A stretch of DNA of 64,000 nt from Pseudorhodoferax soli (GTDB lineage: Bacteria; Pseudomonadota; Gammaproteobacteria; Burkholderiales; Burkholderiaceae_C): the NCBI RefSeq assembly GCF_003337555.1, contig NZ_QPJK01000010.1:62001-126000 (forward strand), in the 5' to 3' direction. The notes beneath the pieces are model-generated. The model ran no database searches. It was not told the origin of the DNA and saw only the letters and a program-made list of their open reading frames with translations. Positions 31,156 through 55,462 of this stretch are shown here, piece by piece. The number at the start of each line of letters is the position of its first letter. Within the stretch, counting starts at the first letter, position 1. The position numbers were made by a program, and so were the translations under genes.

Positions 31156-31520
31156 GTCACTTCCTTGGAAATCAGTTTCGGCGGGCAACGCCTTTGCATT
31201 GCCCGCATGCGGACCACAGGTTCGGTGCCGAAACCAGGCGGCCATCGACGCACACGCGGCGATGACCTGCCTATCCGCACCCGCGGCACCATGCAGTCGG
31301 CATCTCTCGCAAAGAAATACGCCGGGCAGGGCCAAACCTCGGGGAACCGGCGATTATCGCCAAAAAAATTCGAAGGACAAGCTTTTCTGCATTTGGCCTC
31401 TTCGACACCCGGTTCCGTATCCGCCACACGACATGCCCCTGCAGCTTGTGGACAACTACCCGCACACCTAGAATGCCGGGTGCTTCAAAAAAACATTTAT
31501 CCACAGGAGCTGGGCGGCGC
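31156..31520. promoter_or_regulatory. rpmH-dnaA intergenic region with two DnaA boxes
   Basis: This 365-nt gap is where the origin is normally expected. I see a perfect DnaA box TTATCCACA at 31497-31505 and a one-mismatch box TTGTCCACA on the minus strand at 31447-31455. A weak CTATCCGCA lies near 31270. AT-rich stretches occur around 31362-31400. I find no run of TAG-type DnaA-trio triplets next to the boxes. Both good boxes are within 75 nt of the dnaA start, which fits dnaA autoregulation; origin function cannot be excluded. Confidence 0.7.
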
Positions 31521-32915
31521 ATGATCGAGGGGAACCACGCCAGCGGCGCCGCCGGTGACAGCCTGTGGCAGGCCTGCATCGAGCAGCTTGCCCAGGAACT
31601 TCCAGAACAGCAATTCAACACCTGGATCAAGCCCTTGGCGGCCCAGGTGACGGGCGATTTCAGCAAGGTCACGGTGTACGTGGCCAACCGCTTCAAGCTC
31701 GATTGGATCCGCGCGCAGTACAGCAACCGCATCATGCAGATGCTGGAGAACCTGTATGGCCAGCCGATCCAGCTCGAGTTAGCCATCACTCCGCGGGAAA
31801 ACGTTGCCAGGCTTACGCCTTTGCAGCTGGCGCGCGAGATCAGCGCACAGTCCGAACCGGTCGATCTGGGTGAAGAAATCTCCCCCGGCCCGCCCAAGAA
31901 CCGCCTCAACTCCGCCCTCACGTTCTCCACCCTGGTGGAGGGCACGGCCAACCGCATGGCACGCGCCGCAGCCATGCACGTGGCCGGCTCGCCGGGCCAG
32001 CTCTACAACCCCTTGTTCATCTACGGCGGCGTCGGCCTGGGCAAGACCCATTTGATGCACGCGGTGGGCAACCGGCTGCTCGAAGAAAAGCCTGGCGCCA
32101 AAGTTCTCTACATCCATGCGGAGCAGTTCGTTTCGGATGTGGTCAAGTCCTACCAGCGCAAGACCTTCGACGAGTTCAAGGAGCGCTACCACTCGCTCGA
32201 TCTGCTGCTGATCGACGACGTGCAGTTCTTCGCCAACAAGGACCGCACGCAGGAAGAATTCTTCAACGCGTTCGAAGCTCTGCTCGCCAAGAAGAGCCAC
32301 ATCGTGATGACGTCCGACACCTACCCCAAGGGTCTGCCGGACATCCACGAGCGCCTGGTCTCGCGCTTCGACTCCGGCCTCACCGTGGCCATCGAGCCGC
32401 CCGAGCTCGAGATGCGCGTCGCCATCCTGATCAACAAGTCGATCTCCGAGGGCACCGAGATGCCCGAGGAAGTGGCCTTCTTCGTCGCCAAGAACGTGCG
32501 CTCCAACGTGCGCGAGCTCGAAGGCGCGCTGCGCAAGATCCTGGCGTACTCGCGCTTCAACCAGAAGGAAATCTCGATCCAGCTGGCGCGCGAAGCCCTA
32601 CGCGACCTGTTGTCGATCCAGAACCGGCAGATCAGCGTCGAGAACATCCAGAAGACGGTGGCCGACTACTACAAGATCAAGGTCGCCGACATGTACAGCA
32701 AGAAGCGCCCGGCCAGCATCGCGCGGCCGCGCCAGATCGCGATGTACCTGGCCAAGGAGCTCACGCAGAAGAGCCTGCCCGAGATCGGCGAGCTGTTCGG
32801 CGGGCGCGACCACACCACCGTGCTGCACGCCGTGCGCAAGATCGGCGGCGAACGCCAGCAACTGGCCGAGCTGAACCAGCAACTGCACGTGCTGGAGCAG
32901 ACCCTGAAGGGATGA
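31521..32915 (+). CDS. dnaA: Chromosomal replication initiator protein DnaA
   Basis: A 464-residue initiator. Domain I is at the N terminus ([25 protein letters not shown]), then a variable linker. The AAA+ domain III carries Walker [10 protein letters not shown] and Walker [11 protein letters not shown]. Domain IV ends with the DnaA signature [18 protein letters not shown] that reads DnaA boxes. The ATG at 31521 gives the family N terminus; GGAG lies about 12 nt upstream and touches the perfect DnaA box, suggesting autorepression. Confidence 0.97.
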
Positions 32916-39285: not shown

Positions 39286-40443
39286 TCACACGCGCGCCGT
39301 CTTGCTCCGCTTCTTCTCCGCGTAAGACATCGCATCCGCCTGCGCGGCCAGCTGCTCGAACTGCAAGCTGCCATCCGAACACGCGAACCCCACCGAGGCC
39401 CCGACCTTCAGCGCCACGCCGTTGAATTCGATGGACTCGCCCACGGTGCTGCGCACGCGGGCGGCGATGCCCTCGAGCACCTTCGCATCGGCCAAGCCGG
39501 GCAGCAGGATCACGAACTCGTCACCGCCCGTGCGCGCCACCACGTCGCCGTGGCGCGACTGCTGCAGCAGCCTGGTGCCCACGCTTCGCAGCACGGCGTC
39601 GCCGGCCGCATGGCCGTGGCGGTCGTTCACGGGCTTGAAGTCGTCAAGGTCGAAGCTGATCACAGCCATGGGCCGGCCCGCCTGGGCCTGGGCTGCGCGG
39701 TCGATGGACCGGCGGTTGGCCAGGCCCGTGAGCGGGTCGTTCTCGGCGTCGGCATGCAGGGTCTTGAGGTTGGATTCGCCCAGGCCCACGAGCCGGCCGG
39801 CATGCACGATGGCGCCGGCGGTGAACAGCACGAACACCAGGCCGACCACCGCGCTCCAGCGCTTGACGGACTGGAAGCCCAGCTCCCTGGCTTCGCGCCG
39901 CAGTTCGAGCAGGGCGCGCTCCTCGGCGTCCATCACGTCGAGCAGCTTGCGCAGGCGAAAGCTCGCGTCGATGTTGACGCGCGCGGCCAGCGATGCCTGC
40001 AGCGCGGGCGCCCCGTCGCGCTGCGCGATCACGCTGGAGCTGCGGTACCAGCCCAGGATCTCGCGCGTTTCGGCGTGCACCTCGTGCGCGCGGGCAGCCT
40101 GGCCAGGGTTGTCTTCGACCAGGTCGCGCAGGCGCTCGGCAGCGTCCTGCGATTCGAACGAGGCGCGCTCCAGGCTCTCGAGGAACTCGGGCCTGGGCGA
40201 GATGGCGTAGTTGCGCAGCGCCAGCCCGCCCAGCATCACGGTGGCGCGCACGCGGTCGATCTCGCCCTGCACATCGTGCGTGTGGTCGACGAGGGCATCT
40301 GCCTTGCGGAAGTCGGCGATGTTGTGCCACAGCAGCGCACCCAGGCCGAGCAGCAGGGCCAAGGCCGCGACCTGCGAGATCTGCATCACCCGCGCGATGC
40401 GGCGCAGCGTGCCGAAATGGGGAATGCCGGTGCCGGTGGTCAT
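39286..40443 (-). CDS. Membrane-anchored diguanylate cyclase (GGDEF)
   Basis: A 385-residue protein: transmembrane helix 1 near residues 21-43, a periplasmic helical sensor of about 150 residues, helix 2 near 195-215 (WSAVVGLVFVLFTAGAIVHA), and a C-terminal GGDEF domain (NDPLTGLANRRSID to the end) with an intact active site RTGGDEF. It makes cyclic di-GMP from GTP. The family RxxD inhibitory site is not obvious five residues before GGDEF. The gene stands alone. Confidence 0.93.
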   Translation of the reverse strand: MTTGTGIPHFGTLRRIARVMQISQVAALALLLGLGALLWHNIADFRKADALVDHTHDVQGEIDRVRATVMLGGLALRNYAISPRPEFLESLERASFESQDAAERLRDLVEDNPGQAARAHEVHAETREILGWYRSSSVIAQRDGAPALQASLAARVNIDASFRLRKLLDVMDAEERALLELRREARELGFQSVKRWSAVVGLVFVLFTAGAIVHAGRLVGLGESNLKTLHADAENDPLTGLANRRSIDRAAQAQAGRPMAVISFDLDDFKPVNDRHGHAAGDAVLRSVGTRLLQQSRHGDVVARTGGDEFVILLPGLADAKVLEGIAARVRSTVGESIEFNGVALKVGASVGFACSDGSLQFEQLAAQADAMSYAEKKRSKTARV

Positions 40444-50150: not shown

Positions 50151-50188
50151 GGCGGGCCCATCCTATGCGGGGACTGGCGCGCCGCTTG

Positions 50189-50416
50189 TCCCTATCCCTC
50201 TTCTATCTTCTCTATCTTTCAATAGTGGTAGTAGTAGAGGGCGGTCCTGGCTGTGGACAACTGCGGTTTGTCCAGCCGCGCCGCGCACTTGCGGCACGGC
50301 CGTGGCTGTGTGTGGCCGCGCTTTCCTGCTGTCGCGCCGGCATGAACAACTTGCGCCGAACGCGCGCGGCTGTGGACAAGCACCGGCTTGTGCCGGAACT
50401 ATCCACACGGTTGTTC
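50189..50416. other. Origin-like element 1: AT-rich tract, DnaA-trio pattern and three DnaA boxes
   Basis: In order: a pyrimidine-rich AT tract with repeated CTATC (50189-50222); the triplets TAG-TGG-TAG-TAG-TAG then AGGG (50223-50241); a GC-rich spacer; DnaA-like box TTGTCCACA on the minus strand (50252-50260); about 110 nt; a second minus-strand box (50371-50379); and CTATCCACA on the plus strand (50399-50407). In Bacillus subtilis, DnaA-trios of sense 5'-TAG lie directly beside GC-rich DNA and a TGTGGATAA box. The order and polarity here are the same. A second copy is at 52000-52215. Confidence 0.7.
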
Positions 50417-50417
50417 T

Positions 50418-50654
50418 TCAGGGGGTCGGATGCTGCGGCGCGACGGCGCCCACCACGGGCAAGACGTGCGGGGCAGGGGCGCTGGCGTGGTGCGGACGCG
50501 CTGGCACTGCCTTGCCTTGGGCAGGCAAGGGGGCTGCGGCAGGGACGGACGCAGCCCGGTGTTCGCTGTACTGCACAGCGGCCACCACGAGCGCGAACAG
50601 CAGCAGGTGCAGCGCGATGCCGGCACCCGGGCTTTCCAATGTCCACTTCTTCAT
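50418..50654 (-). CDS. Small single-pass membrane protein, unknown
   Basis: A 78-residue protein beginning MKKWTLESPGAGIALHLLLF, with one predicted helix (GAGIALHLLLFALVVAAVQY, about 10-29) and a Pro/Ala/His-rich extracytoplasmic tail. It is divergent from the DUF6502 gene with about 25 nt between starts. No family recognised. A longer start at 50687 is in frame but would overlap the DUF6502 start. The stop lies just outside origin-like element 1. Confidence 0.5.
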   Translation of the reverse strand: MKKWTLESPGAGIALHLLLFALVVAAVQYSEHRAASVPAAAPLPAQGKAVPARPHHASAPAPHVLPVVGAVAPQHPTP

Positions 50655-50679
50655 CTGCGTGGAATAATATCCCACAGAA

Positions 50680-51498
50680 ATGTCCACTCCATCCCGGTCT
50701 GCGGTCGTGCTGGCTTCGGTGCTGCGGCTGCTCCGGCCAGCGGTGCGGCTGTTGCTGCGGCACGGTGTGGCCTATCCCAGCTTCGCGGCCGCACTCAAGC
50801 AGGTGTTCCTGGAGGCTGCGCGCGACGAGCTGGCCGCCAGCGGCCAGAAAACCACCGACAGCGCCTTGAGCCTGCTGTCGGGCGTACACCGGCGCGATGT
50901 GCGCCAGCTGCGCAGCATCGCCAGCGAAGCCCCCGCGCGCGACGCCATGAACATGGCCAGCCAGGTGGTGGCGCGCTGGCTCAGCGACGTGGCCTTCGTC
51001 GACGACGAGGGCGCGCCACTGGTGCTGCCGCGCCAGGCCGAAGGGCCAGGCTTCGACGCCCTGGTCGCAGCCATCAGCACCGACGTGCGGCCACGTGCCG
51101 TGCTCGACGAATTGCTGCGCCTGGGCCTGGTGGATGAAGGCGCGCAGGGGGTGCGCCTGCTCGCGCCCGGCTTCGTGCCGCGCCAGGGCTTTGCCGAGAT
51201 GGTGCAGCTGCTGGGGGACAACGTGCACGACCACCTGGCGGCGGCCTGCGCCAATGTCGACGGCCAGCAGAACTTCCTGGAGCAGGCCGTGTTCGTGGAC
51301 GAACTGACGCCGGCGTCCGCCGCCGAACTGCACGCCCTGGCCGCCAAGGTGTGGCGCCAGGCTTTCCGCCAGGTGATGGGCGAGGCCCAGGCGCGCTTCG
51401 ACCACGACCAGGCCCATGCCGACCCGGCGCAGCGCACGCAGCGCGTGCGCTTCGGCAGCTACTTCCATGCCACTGATGACCATGAAACGACGCGTTGA
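50680..51498 (+). CDS. DUF6502 family protein
   Basis: A 272-residue protein that I place in DUF6502, a family of unknown function frequent in Betaproteobacteria. The N-terminal 90 residues are helical (VLRLLRPAVRLLLRHGVAYPSFAAALKQVFLEAARDEL) and then resemble a winged helix (KTTDSALSLLSGVHRRDVRQLR), consistent with DNA binding. No catalytic motif or membrane helix is seen. It lies exactly between the two origin-like elements, and its last 17 bases overlap the lipoprotein gene. Confidence 0.75.
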   Translation: MSTPSRSAVVLASVLRLLRPAVRLLLRHGVAYPSFAAALKQVFLEAARDELAASGQKTTDSALSLLSGVHRRDVRQLRSIASEAPARDAMNMASQVVARWLSDVAFVDDEGAPLVLPRQAEGPGFDALVAAISTDVRPRAVLDELLRLGLVDEGAQGVRLLAPGFVPRQGFAEMVQLLGDNVHDHLAAACANVDGQQNFLEQAVFVDELTPASAAELHALAAKVWRQAFRQVMGEAQARFDHDQAHADPAQRTQRVRFGSYFHATDDHETTR

Positions 51499-52015
51499 GC
51501 TGTTGGCAGGCCTCTGGCTCGGCTGCCTGCTGGTGGCCTGCGGCCCCGGCACCGGCGGCACGGGCACCGGCCCGAACGTGGGCGCCAGCCTGGCAGAAGG
51601 CACCTACACCGCCACGCTGGACCCGGACCTGCAGCCGGCGCAGCCTCTGCCCTGCGGCGACCGGTGCGGGGGCGCAATGGTCTTGTCGGTCGGCGAGACG
51701 CGGGTGGAACTGAGCCTGCCATGCCAGCGCTTCGTGCACGAAGGCGCCTGGGAGTTCGATGCCAACGGCCAGGCCGAGCTGGCGGGCCGCTGGAGCACGG
51801 TGGTGCTTTCCGACGGGAAGGCGCTGCTGCAGGAACAGAGCGTGCTGCTCACGCTCGTCGCCAGCCTGCCGGATGGGTACGGGCAGGGTGCGGGGCAGGG
51901 CCTGCGGCTGCAGCTGAGCCTGCGCGGCTTCGATGGCGCGGCGCTGCTGGAACCTGTTTTGTTGACGCAACAGCCGCCAGAGGCCGCTACGGTCTCCTGT
52001 CTATCTTTCAATTAA
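51482..52015 (+). CDS. Putative outer-membrane lipoprotein (NlpE/META-like)
   Basis: A 177-residue lipoprotein: signal peptide with lipobox LLVAC (Cys near residue 19) after a hydrophobic segment, then a Gly/Thr-rich spacer. The mature part is beta-rich (EGTYTATLDPDLQPAQPLPCGDRCGGAMVLSVGETRVEL), of the kind seen in NlpE-like or copper-resistance barrels, but the family is not certain. It overlaps the DUF6502 gene by 17 nt. Its last codons (LSFN, stop) are formed by the AT-rich edge of origin-like element 2. Confidence 0.7.
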   Translation: MKRRVELLAGLWLGCLLVACGPGTGGTGTGPNVGASLAEGTYTATLDPDLQPAQPLPCGDRCGGAMVLSVGETRVELSLPCQRFVHEGAWEFDANGQAELAGRWSTVVLSDGKALLQEQSVLLTLVASLPDGYGQGAGQGLRLQLSLRGFDGAALLEPVLLTQQPPEAATVSCLSFN

Positions 52016-52215
52016 TTCAATAGTGGTAGTAGTAGAGGGTGGGCCTGCGCTGTGGGCAACCCGGTTTTTCCGAGCGCCATCAAGGGCTTGGCAAATTCAC
52101 AGCCGTGTGGGCCGGGGCCCTGCAAGCTGCACCCCAGAAGCGAACAACTTTCGCGCGGACGCTTCTCCTGTGGACAACTACCTCGTTGTGCCGGAACTAT
52201 CCACAGGCTTTTTTC
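52000..52215. other. Origin-like element 2: second copy of the DnaA-trio/DnaA-box element
   Basis: It repeats element 1 in the same orientation 1.8 kb away: TCTATCTTTCAA (52000-52011), an extra TTAATTCAA, then the same TAG-TGG-TAG-TAG-TAG-AGGG run (52021-52039), a GC spacer, TTGCCCACA on the minus strand (52051-52059), TTGTCCACA on the minus strand (52169-52177) and CTATCCACA on the plus strand (52197-52205). Box spacing matches element 1 within one base: 118 versus 119, then 28 versus 28. The intervening sequence has diverged, apart from a GAACAACTT block. Confidence 0.7.
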
Positions 52216-52290
52216 AAGCATCGGCAGCTTCCTACAAGCCCCTGTGTGACGGCTGCGTAGCATGTGCAACAAACCCACAACGAGAGTTGC

Positions 52291-52839
52291 ATGAAGCCCA
52301 TCACGAAGAAAGCGGCACTGGCCGCGCTATGCCTGGTGTTCGGCGCCGCAGCCCAGGCGCAGCAGCAACGACAGGGCCCCGCCCTGTACCTGGAGGCCGG
52401 CCAGGCCCGCCACCATGGCGCCACCACCGACGCGATGACATTGGGCGTGCGCCTGCCCACCGACGTGCGCTTTTTCAGCGGCAGGCTGGCCCTGGCGGTG
52501 GATGGCTACGCGAGCCGCTGGCAGGCCGACGCCCTCCCCGGCGAACGCGACGATTTCACCCAGCTGGGCCTGGTGCCCATGCTGCGCTGGCGCTTCGACG
52601 AAGGACGTTCACCCTGGTTCGTGGAGGGCGGTATCGGCGTGTCCTATCTGGTGCACGGCTACCGCACCCGGACCAAGGCGTTCGGCTCGCGCTGGAACTT
52701 CAGCGACCACCTGGGCGTGGGCTACAGCTTCGGGCGGCACGAGATCGGCATGTACGTCAAGCATGTGTCCAACGGCGGACTGGACAAGCCGAACCCGGGC
52801 GAGACTTTCTACCAGCTGCGCTACAGCTACGCGTTGTAA
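52291..52839 (+). CDS. pagL: Lipid A deacylase PagL / acyloxyacyl hydrolase
   Basis: A 182-residue outer-membrane beta-barrel enzyme with a Sec signal (KKAALAALCLVFGAAAQAQ). The catalytic His-Ser pair is in VKHVSNGGLDKPNPGE, with the Glu at the end of that segment, and the C-terminal YQLRYSYAL ends in the usual aromatic strand. PagL removes the 3-O acyl chain of lipid A. The ATG at 52291 gives the signal peptide directly. A terminator follows. Confidence 0.9.
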   Translation: MKPITKKAALAALCLVFGAAAQAQQQRQGPALYLEAGQARHHGATTDAMTLGVRLPTDVRFFSGRLALAVDGYASRWQADALPGERDDFTQLGLVPMLRWRFDEGRSPWFVEGGIGVSYLVHGYRTRTKAFGSRWNFSDHLGVGYSFGRHEIGMYVKHVSNGGLDKPNPGETFYQLRYSYAL

Positions 52840-53785: not shown

Positions 53786-54304
53786 TCAGCCCTTCGGTTC
53801 GGGCTGGGGCGGCGTGCCGTGCTGGTGCGTGCCGTGGTGCGGGCCGTGGCGCGGCCCCATGGCCATGCGCTGGTCGAACACCTGTTGCTGCTCGGGCGTG
53901 AGCGCACCGTACAGCCGCAGCGTGGCTTCGGCACGGCGCTCCATCTCGGCGGAGCGCTTGGCGTGCATGGCACGCATGTGCTCGATGCGCTGCGGCGTGG
54001 TCATCTTGCGGATGGCCTCGCGGTCAGGCCGCTCGGACGGCGGGCCAGGCGGCAGCATGCTGGCCGTGAACACGTTCCAGGCCGGCTCCTGCTCGGCCGT
54101 GATCTTGAGCTCCTGCTTGAGCCGGGCCTCGCGGCGCTCCATGCGCTTGGCAGGATCGGGGCGGGCGTGTTCGCGGGCATGGCGTGCCGGCGCCTCGGTC
54201 GTGGGTGGCGGGGCGGGCGGGGTCTGTGCCATGGCGGCGGCGCCCAGTGCAGCCAGGCTGCCGGCGAGCACGATGCGTTGGAGGGAGAAGAGAGAGCGGG
54301 TCAT
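53786..54304 (-). CDS. Spy/CpxP-like LTxxQ periplasmic protein
   Basis: A 172-residue periplasmic protein: Sec signal (SLQRIVLAGSLAALGAAAMAQ), Pro-rich spacer, then helices with the paired motifs ITAEQEPAWNVF and LTPEQQQVFDQ typical of Spy/CpxP proteins. The tail is His-rich (GPRHGPHHGTHQHG), suggesting metal binding. Spy-like proteins are chaperones induced by envelope stress or metals. Divergent from rdgC across 189 nt. Confidence 0.85.
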   Translation of the reverse strand: MTRSLFSLQRIVLAGSLAALGAAAMAQTPPAPPPTTEAPARHAREHARPDPAKRMERREARLKQELKITAEQEPAWNVFTASMLPPGPPSERPDREAIRKMTTPQRIEHMRAMHAKRSAEMERRAEATLRLYGALTPEQQQVFDQRMAMGPRHGPHHGTHQHGTPPQPEPKG

Positions 54305-54493
54305 CAAGACTTCCTTTCTGTCGGTGAACCACAGCGGCTGTTGCTCTGCTGTGGGGCCAGTGTCCGGGGCGCTTGTATCGGCCCGGTGCTGTTTGTCCGG
54401 CTGTTTGTAAAGTTCTCGCAAGGAAGTTTGCGGTGCCATGCGGCGGCGGCGTGCAACGACAATATGCGGCTTTCCGTGCAACGAGAGCGAACA

Positions 54494-55462
54494 GTGTTCA
54501 AGAACGTGATGGTTTACAAGCTCGGCGGCGCCTGGACGGCGACGTGGGAGCAGATCGAGGAGGCGCTCGGCACGCAGCGCTTCGAGGAATGCGGCCCGAC
54601 GCAGGAACGTTCGGCCGGCTGGGTTCCGCCGCGTGGCGAGGAACATGGTCCGCTGGTCGAGTCCGTGGGTGGCCAATACCTGCTGCGCCTGATGGTCGAG
54701 AGCAAGGCCGTGCCGGCCTCCGTGGTCAAGCGCAAGGCCGACGAACGCGCCCAGCAGATCGAGGCCACCACCGGCCGCAAGCCCGGCAAGAAGGAAATCC
54801 GCGACCTGCGCGAAGAAGCCAAGCAGGCGCTGCTGCCCGTGGCCTTCACCAAGCGCGGCGCCACCTGGGTGTGGATCGACCTGCAGGCGCGCCGCTTCGT
54901 GGTCGATGCCGGCAGCCAGAACCGGGTCGACGAGATCCTGAGCCTGCTGGTCAAGGTGCTGGACGGCTTCGCGGTGCAGGAAGTGCACACCGCCACCTCG
55001 GCCACGGCAGCGATGTCCGAATGGCTCAGCAGCCAGGAGCCGCCGGCCGGCTTCTCCATCGACCGCGAGTGCGAGCTCAAGGCGACCGACGCCTCCAAGG
55101 CCGCGATCCGCTACGCCCACCACCCGCTGGACATCGAGGAGATCCGCCAGCACATCGCCGAGGGCAAGCTGCCGACCAAGCTGGCCATGACCTGGGACGA
55201 GCGCGTGTCCTTCGTGCTGACCGAGAGCATGCAGCTGCGCAAGCTGCAGTTCCAGGACGGCGTGTTCGAGAAGACCTCGCAGGAGAAGGAAGACAGCTTC
55301 GACGCCGATGCCGCCATCTCCACGGGCGAAATCAGCCGCCTGCTGCCGGGCCTGCTGGAGGCGCTGGGCGGCGAGATCGAACTGGTGGCTGCGGTGGAGA
55401 CACCGTTGCCTGCCGCCGCGGCGCCCACGGCGCAGCCGGACACCGAAGACGCGCCGTTCTGA
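54494..55462 (+). CDS. rdgC: Recombination-associated protein RdgC
   Basis: A 322-residue RdgC, a ring-shaped DNA-binding dimer that limits RecA activity. The start is GTG at 54494, aligned with the conserved family opening FKNVMVYKL; GAGAGCG lies upstream. Conserved blocks include WVPPRGE near residue 45 and LPVAFTKRGATWVWIDLQAR near 115. Its stop is 4 nt from the stop of the convergent aldo/keto reductase gene. Confidence 0.95.
   Translation: MFKNVMVYKLGGAWTATWEQIEEALGTQRFEECGPTQERSAGWVPPRGEEHGPLVESVGGQYLLRLMVESKAVPASVVKRKADERAQQIEATTGRKPGKKEIRDLREEAKQALLPVAFTKRGATWVWIDLQARRFVVDAGSQNRVDEILSLLVKVLDGFAVQEVHTATSATAAMSEWLSSQEPPAGFSIDRECELKATDASKAAIRYAHHPLDIEEIRQHIAEGKLPTKLAMTWDERVSFVLTESMQLRKLQFQDGVFEKTSQEKEDSFDADAAISTGEISRLLPGLLEALGGEIELVAAVETPLPAAAAPTAQPDTEDAPF

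Follow-up and report, generated by a model that had tools for sequence, protein, structure and literature searches.

A putative chromosomal origin of two tandem DnaA-trio units, located away from dnaA, in Pseudorhodoferax soli

The bipartite origins of Bacillus subtilis and Helicobacter pylori consist of two halves that flank dnaA, and only one of the halves carries an unwinding region. The oriC of Escherichia coli contains an IHF site and has mnmG as its neighbour. The loci datA and DARS are DnaA-box clusters without an unwinding element and lie away from the skew switch. In passages of PMC8287927, the DnaA-trio module (BUS) is given as at least three trios with a DnaA-box within 16 bp. The same passages place the E. 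coli oriC apart from dnaA; the BUS as such, its broad distribution and dnaA-distant origins are known from that paper. For Cupriavidus metallidurans CH34, excerpts of PMC2864759 describe a skew switch preceded by a 213-nt stretch with three perfect DnaA boxes. The origin of Burkholderia cenocepacia is described in an excerpt of PMC4948915 as not exactly placed. Putative bacterial double origins, including Ralstonia pickettii loci at hemE and dnaA, appear in a passage of PMC4403523. Searches of the open-licence PMC literature found neither a family-wide unit nor twin BUS units, and nothing for DnaA-trio together with Comamonas; absence in print is not implied by either result. The search for DnaA-trio, betaproteobacteria and oriC in the same literature returned a match that, by its listing, concerns Epsilonproteobacteria. 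BUS and dnaA-distant origins are known, and the twin BUS units are a new variation on them. An origin at such a distance from dnaA had been described for this locus as not normally annotated; judged by the passages on E. coli (PMC8287927) and C. metallidurans (PMC2864759), it is less unusual than claimed.

The window, i.e., the whole 64,000-nucleotide stretch of P. soli DNA that was analysed, contained two similar modules at 50176-52228. Judged from its sequence, this locus would very probably be the chromosomal oriC, composed of two tandem origin units, A and B, opened by DnaA via the DnaA-trio module and separate from dnaA. The units were delimited with R1, a sequence-only profile that was built from 25 unit copies and spans the ~250-bp unit. 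The features of the window were as follows.

31447..31505, both strands: DnaA boxes upstream of dnaA, TTGTCCACA at 31447-31455 (minus) and a perfect TTATCCACA at 31497-31505 (plus)
31521..32915, plus: dnaA (ORF 31446-32915; Pfam Bac_DnaA E 2.5e-60, Bac_DnaA_C, DnaA_N)
50176..50428, plus: putative origin unit A, whole module (R1, 168.5 bits, E 1.8e-51, filters off)
50196..50222, plus: unit A AT/pyrimidine-rich tract adjoining the trios, putative unwinding region (from sequence)
50223..50237, plus: unit A DnaA-trios TAG TGG TAG TAG TAG (from sequence; among the best-conserved columns of 110 aligned copies)
50252..50260, minus: unit A BUS DnaA-box TTGTCCACA (top strand TGTGGACAA), 14 bp from the trios (box scan)
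50371..50379, minus: unit A DnaA-box TTGTCCACA (top strand TGTGGACAA; box scan)
50399..50407, plus: unit A DnaA-box CTATCCACA, facing the box at 50371..50379 (box scan)
50680..51498, plus: DUF6502 gene between units A and B (Pfam PF20112, E 1.4e-33)
51972..52228, plus: putative origin unit B, whole module (R1, 161.8 bits, E 2.1e-49; also in the profile by construction)
52021..52035, plus: unit B DnaA-trios TAG TGG TAG TAG TAG (pattern scan; second TAGTNGTAGTAGTAGNGG place)
52051..52059, minus: unit B BUS DnaA-box, weak, TTGCCCACA, 2 mismatches, 15 bp from the trios (box scan)
52078..52090, plus: unit B IHF-like site CATCAAGGGCTTG, 12/13 of the consensus WATCAANNNNTTR; degenerate in unit A, 8/13
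52169..52177, minus: unit B DnaA-box TTGTCCACA (box scan)
52197..52205, plus: unit B DnaA-box CTATCCACA, facing the box at 52169..52177 (box scan)
52291..52839, plus: pagL-like gene, neighbour of unit B (Pfam PagL, E 5e-30)

The R1 score of unit A is given by construction because its copy was included in building the profile; independent support came from the R1 match in 187/200 family genomes. At 50223-50260, unit A reads TAGTGGTAGTAGTAG and then, after a GC-rich spacer of 14 bp, TGTGGACAA; AGGG and the GC-rich spacer account for the 14 bp at 50238-50251. All parts described in an earlier sequence-only reading, namely tract, trios, AGGG, spacer, box and two facing boxes, were recovered at these positions, and the box variant TTGTCCACA that it had reported upstream of dnaA was located at 31447-31455. 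By the BUS criterion, which asks for at least three DnaA-trios with a box no further than 16 bp away and no more than 2 mismatches in it, unit A showed a box with 1 mismatch at 14 bp; one of its five triplets was TGG, without the middle A. The AT-rich tract beside the trios and the further DnaA-boxes of a BUS-type oriC were present as well. A strict test, which required no fewer than three exact TAG trios and, within 16 bp of them, a box with no more than 1 mismatch, returned unit A alone in the 64-kb window and nothing in order-1 Markov sequences of window length (0/300). At up to 3 mismatches, TAGTNGTAGTAGTAGNGG occurred at two places in the window; 100 shuffled sequences gave 0.02 occurrences on average.

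Unit B showed the same order and orientation as unit A, with 72% identity across 214 bp. It lies outside the coordinates of the sequence-only reading, which had a single element there, and its left edge overlaps the end of ORF 51416-52015. Its BUS, with 2 mismatches at 15 bp, was of fair fit, that of unit A being good. Unit B was absent from the strict test because its BUS box has 2 mismatches. The DUF6502 gene between the units is probably an incidental passenger. As an origin partner it was rejected, being located beside the unit in only G000, G002 and G003 among 40 genomes searched. In these three genomes it lies between the units at a spacing of 1.8 kb (50428-51972 in the window). The units of G004 and G005, two genomes in which DUF6502 was not found, are ~0.4-0.5 kb apart. 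The interval between the two units seems to have gained or lost a gene in Pseudorhodoferax. A pagL-like neighbour was also present at the unit of G009 (PagL E 2e-29). The gene rdgC (53819-55462 in the window) was found near the unit in the window, in G009 and in Acidovorax Leaf78, as well as by Pfam at L113; look-alikes were seen by eye at L136 and L137. The pagL-like/rdgC neighbourhood is possibly a shared address after the unit left dnaA.

The start of dnaA is 18.7 kb from unit A; in the window, a place beside a replication gene, which is usual for origins and not defining, was not observed. No (TAG)3 run was found near the boxes upstream of dnaA, and R1 reached only 2.7 and 5.9 bits at the boxes in 31447-31505. 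These boxes probably belong to DnaA autoregulation and form no origin unit. A search with a parS consensus found no parS-like sites within the 64-kb window.

With stricter filters and at E 1e-3, R1 matched 187/200 sampled genomes of the family, and 173/179 genomes of at least 90% completeness and at most 5% contamination. At the same E value, 133/141 family genera were matched. Some of the family matches are given by construction because some of the 25 source copies come from sampled genomes. Thirteen of the 200 family genomes were without a match, including six that pass the same limits of 90% completeness and 5% contamination. When the order was sampled, R1 matched 26/150 genomes at E 1e-3, four from the family and the rest weaker. 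A strict DNA pattern search, which had found 15/200 genomes with 0 in the reversed control, proved too narrow, and R1 took its place. The copy alignment comprised 110 copies, in which four rows repeat two records, leaving 106 without repeats. Conservation across the 110 copies was highest in the columns of the trios, in those of the BUS box and distal boxes, and in those of an inner motif. A run of at least three TNR triplets including at least two TAG was retained in 98/106 copies, and GTGG in the BUS box was likewise found in 98/106. For the suggested search of relatives for the element upstream of DUF6502 genes, the outcome was a widely found unit (187/200) and an incidental link to the gene (3/40 genomes).

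For a close look, a set of 30 genomes with 1-3 contigs was used; 33/200 genomes qualified, all of them R1-matching, and G070, G093 and G200 were left out. The match of 30/30 in this set is by choice because the genomes were taken from matching ones. With DnaA_C (PF08299) as the marker for dnaA, the unit was at most 0.2 kb from dnaA in 11/30 genomes (G022, G077, G081, G100, G111, G119, G149, G153, G194, G195 and G216) and 13-459 kb away in the other 19. Flanking genes were read at 17 chosen loci, part of them named by Pfam. The unit was located between dnaA and dnaN in G100 and an Aquabacterium MAG (L115), between dnaA and the RNase P protein gene in a Polaromonas MAG (L173), and ahead of mnmG-rsmG in Brachymonas (L117). 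All three kinds of flank are usual origin addresses, mnmG being adjacent to the E. coli oriC as well. Within Pseudorhodoferax, dnaA was 10 to 24 kb from the unit in G003, G004 and G005 and on a separate contig in G001 and G002. The unit is recognisable in most sampled family relatives, though its chromosomal address varies.

Skew near the unit and near dnaA was compared in nine genomes in which the two lie apart. Six leaned to the unit, clearly so in three cases; another three were undecided, and none was clearly for dnaA. Clear switches at the unit, away from dnaA, were seen in G079, G099 and G012; the switch of G047 was within ~30 kb, and those of G009 and G092 were weak. In G099, dnaA is located at the contig start. 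All five stretches from dnaA to the unit were negative (-0.0085 to -0.043, up to 139.4 kb), the first stretch past the unit was at +0.059, and 4/5 stretches beyond were positive. In 2-kb steps next to the unit, 9/10 were negative before and 10/10 positive after it. The cumulative minimum of G079 (20 stretches, 1.0-2.02 Mb) was immediately ahead of the unit and 459 kb away from dnaA, and the KOPS-like GGGNAGGG was counted 8 times plus and 36 times minus to the left, 14 times plus and 3 times minus to the right (p 6e-6). About 300 kb of near-zero skew precede this unit (C1 1.475-1.77 Mb, L189-L194), as if there had been a recent rearrangement near the origin. In G012, where only four stretches were available, the two before the unit were negative and the two after it positive, the last at only +0.003. 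G047 had its cumulative minimum at most 30 kb from the unit and 150 kb past dnaA; its GGGNAGGG bias across the unit had a p of 3e-4, though row by row the change falls near 2.20 Mb, in the interval from dnaA to the unit. The lowest point of 120 kb in G009 was at 39888, with the unit at 40032, and the skew also rises left of dnaA. In G092, the minimum at the unit was tiny and GGGNAGGG showed no bias (p 0.35); the best model break, at 99.8 kb, was closer to dnaA and not significant. In G020, no skew switch was seen.

Skew is weak within Pseudorhodoferax. Neither the contig of the window (C10, 278 kb) nor the congener G005 showed a significant break at the unit, and GGGNAGGG was without bias in C10 (p 0.39). 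In G005, it was counted 18 times plus and 11 times minus left of the unit, 23 times plus and 2 times minus right of it (p 0.012), and the row-wise change seems to be ~150 kb to the left. An orientation-corrected gene model, in which third-position skew is used and breaks are compared by LR, favoured the unit over dnaA in G079 (24.9 vs 19.2) and G047 (8.1 vs 6.6), with the best single break elsewhere, at 1.477 Mb and 2.348 Mb, respectively. For G000, the best break was at contig position 109,957, ~2.2 kb from unit A, and not significant (LR 2.5). Simple skew of the window and the 278-kb contig, and the orientation-corrected model, were rejected as too weak for placing the origin in Pseudorhodoferax. 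A skew minimum at the element had been named as a check; several relatives had their switch at the unit and not at dnaA, and in the window's own contig and in G005 the skew was too weak to decide.

Two to three R1 matches at E 1e-10 or better were present in 13/30 chosen genomes (G008, G009, G012, G023, G092, G095, G140, G141, G148, G167, G182, G194 and G209), and one strong unit in 17/30. Neighbouring units were at most 12 kb apart in 11 of these 13 genomes and co-oriented in 12, G182 being the exception. With weak matches included, 62/200 family genomes had at least two; G065 and G179 list two opposed units. Third copies within ~30 kb of a pair were noted at G009:C1:69306-69561, G008:C1:3267201-3267453 and G140:C1:3072859-3073114. 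In a FastTree phylogeny of 106 copies, the A copies of five Pseudorhodoferax genomes formed a clade with a support of 1.00, and the B copies a second one with 0.94. In Acidovorax, too, the copies fell into two clades, and Hydrogenophaga and Aquabacterium have pairs of their own. The deep branches are uncertain because the sequences are short. Since the copies of Pseudorhodoferax and Acidovorax are in separate clades, they would be old duplicates that were both kept, and the simplest reading of the tree is repeated duplication with long retention of both copies. The congener G001 had a single unit.

The IHF-like site, within 1 mismatch of WATCAANNNNTTR, which we take to be the IHF consensus, was present at the fixed BUS-box offset of unit B in 51/106 copies. 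Anywhere in the unit it was found in 57/106, compared with 21/106 for the backward consensus. Among the five Pseudorhodoferax genomes, it was carried by 5/5 B copies and 0/5 A copies, and a BUS box of at most 1 mismatch by 4/5 A and 2/5 B copies. At the level of sequence, the IHF difference between A and B is firm and the box difference is not. A division of labour between the two is put forward as a hypothesis.

In the proposed mechanism, DnaA would bind, in each unit, the inverted boxes on the right-hand side as well as the box by the GC-rich spacer. It would then be passed to the single-stranded TAG trios, where it would form a filament that opens the AT-rich tract at the left, and the helicase would be loaded there. 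In unit B, the IHF-like site, which has the BUS box on one side and the distal boxes on the other, may bend the DNA and join the two DnaA clusters; unit A lacks such a site. We infer DnaA binding, opening, IHF bending, and firing or cooperation of both units from the arrangement of these parts.

A DnaA-trio origin away from dnaA, as first claimed for this locus, is supported by the conservation in 187/200 genomes, the contact with dnaA in 11/30 and the skew switches of relatives. It is improbable that replication starts at dnaA and that the pair, like datA or DARS, is a site that titrates or reactivates DnaA and controls initiation from afar. Two good boxes are present upstream of dnaA, the skew of the window favours neither dnaA nor the unit, and datA and DARS also contain boxes and IHF sites. 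Against such a site speak the trio run kept in 98/106 copies (to our knowledge, trios form no part of datA or DARS), the unit adjoining dnaA in 11/30 chosen genomes, and skew following the unit in G079, G099 and G012; R1 at dnaA in the window, at most 5.9 bits, argues against an origin there. A mobile or repeated extragenic element whose DnaA-like motifs arose by chance is hardly credible as an account of the pair and is refuted in part. The copy number of 1-4 and the varying neighbours would suit such an element, but the 8.16-Mb genome holds two copies 1.8 kb apart and no further R1 match, the best-conserved columns are trios and boxes, and a BUS of this kind arose in 0/300 Markov sequences.

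Within an oriC at 50176-52228, there is a serious possibility, somewhat short of an even chance, that only A or B is a working origin and the other copy a decaying or regulatory duplicate. This is suggested by the A copies without an IHF-like site in 5/5 Pseudorhodoferax genomes, by BUS boxes with 2 mismatches in 3/5 B and 1/5 A copies, by the single unit of G001 and by the 17/30 chosen genomes with one strong unit. Against it, both A and B keep their trios in the five Pseudorhodoferax genomes, and the separate A and B clades (1.00 and 0.94) indicate that both copies lasted since before these species split. In the most far-reaching form of the twin-unit oriC, the GTDB family would carry a moving, repeatedly duplicated ~250-bp oriC cassette, parted from dnaA in many lineages. 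The cassette would act through two units of like orientation, each able to open by itself and with roles that are partly divided: the IHF bend would belong to one, and the stronger box would more often be found in the other. The chromosome would then start at two adjacent unwinding sites. This extension is speculative and, taken as a whole, rather unlikely.

With the twin-unit oriC, the family that includes Burkholderia cenocepacia would gain an origin sequence that is precise and can be tested, and R1 finds the unit at any address. Numbering based on dnaA would miss starting at the unit in 19/30 genomes. The long-kept twin units raise the questions of whether a bacterial chromosome can use two side-by-side unwinding sites and what selects for two.

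The locus shares with the bipartite origins of B. subtilis and H. pylori two DnaA-box clusters about one gene length apart, both detected in the window and long retained. It differs from them in having trios and tract in both halves, neither of which touches dnaA. In contrast to datA and DARS, the locus has trios and tract, and several relatives have their skew switch at the unit. As in E. coli, the putative origin is located apart from dnaA, while the E. coli BUS score is given as relatively weak in a passage of PMC8287927 and the TAG run here is near perfect. Chromosome 1 of C. metallidurans CH34 is alike in its skew switch ~90 kb from dnaA; the passages of PMC2864759 mention no trios, pair or family-wide unit, and the CH34 stretch is likened by description only. 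With the B. subtilis BUS, as described in passages of PMC8287927, the locus has in common the box, a spacer of at most 16 bp, at least three TAG trios by an AT-rich tract, and the polarity. It differs from that system in its two tandem BUS units 1.8 kb apart and away from dnaA, and in the distal inverted boxes and IHF-like site that complete a ~250-bp unit kept in one family.
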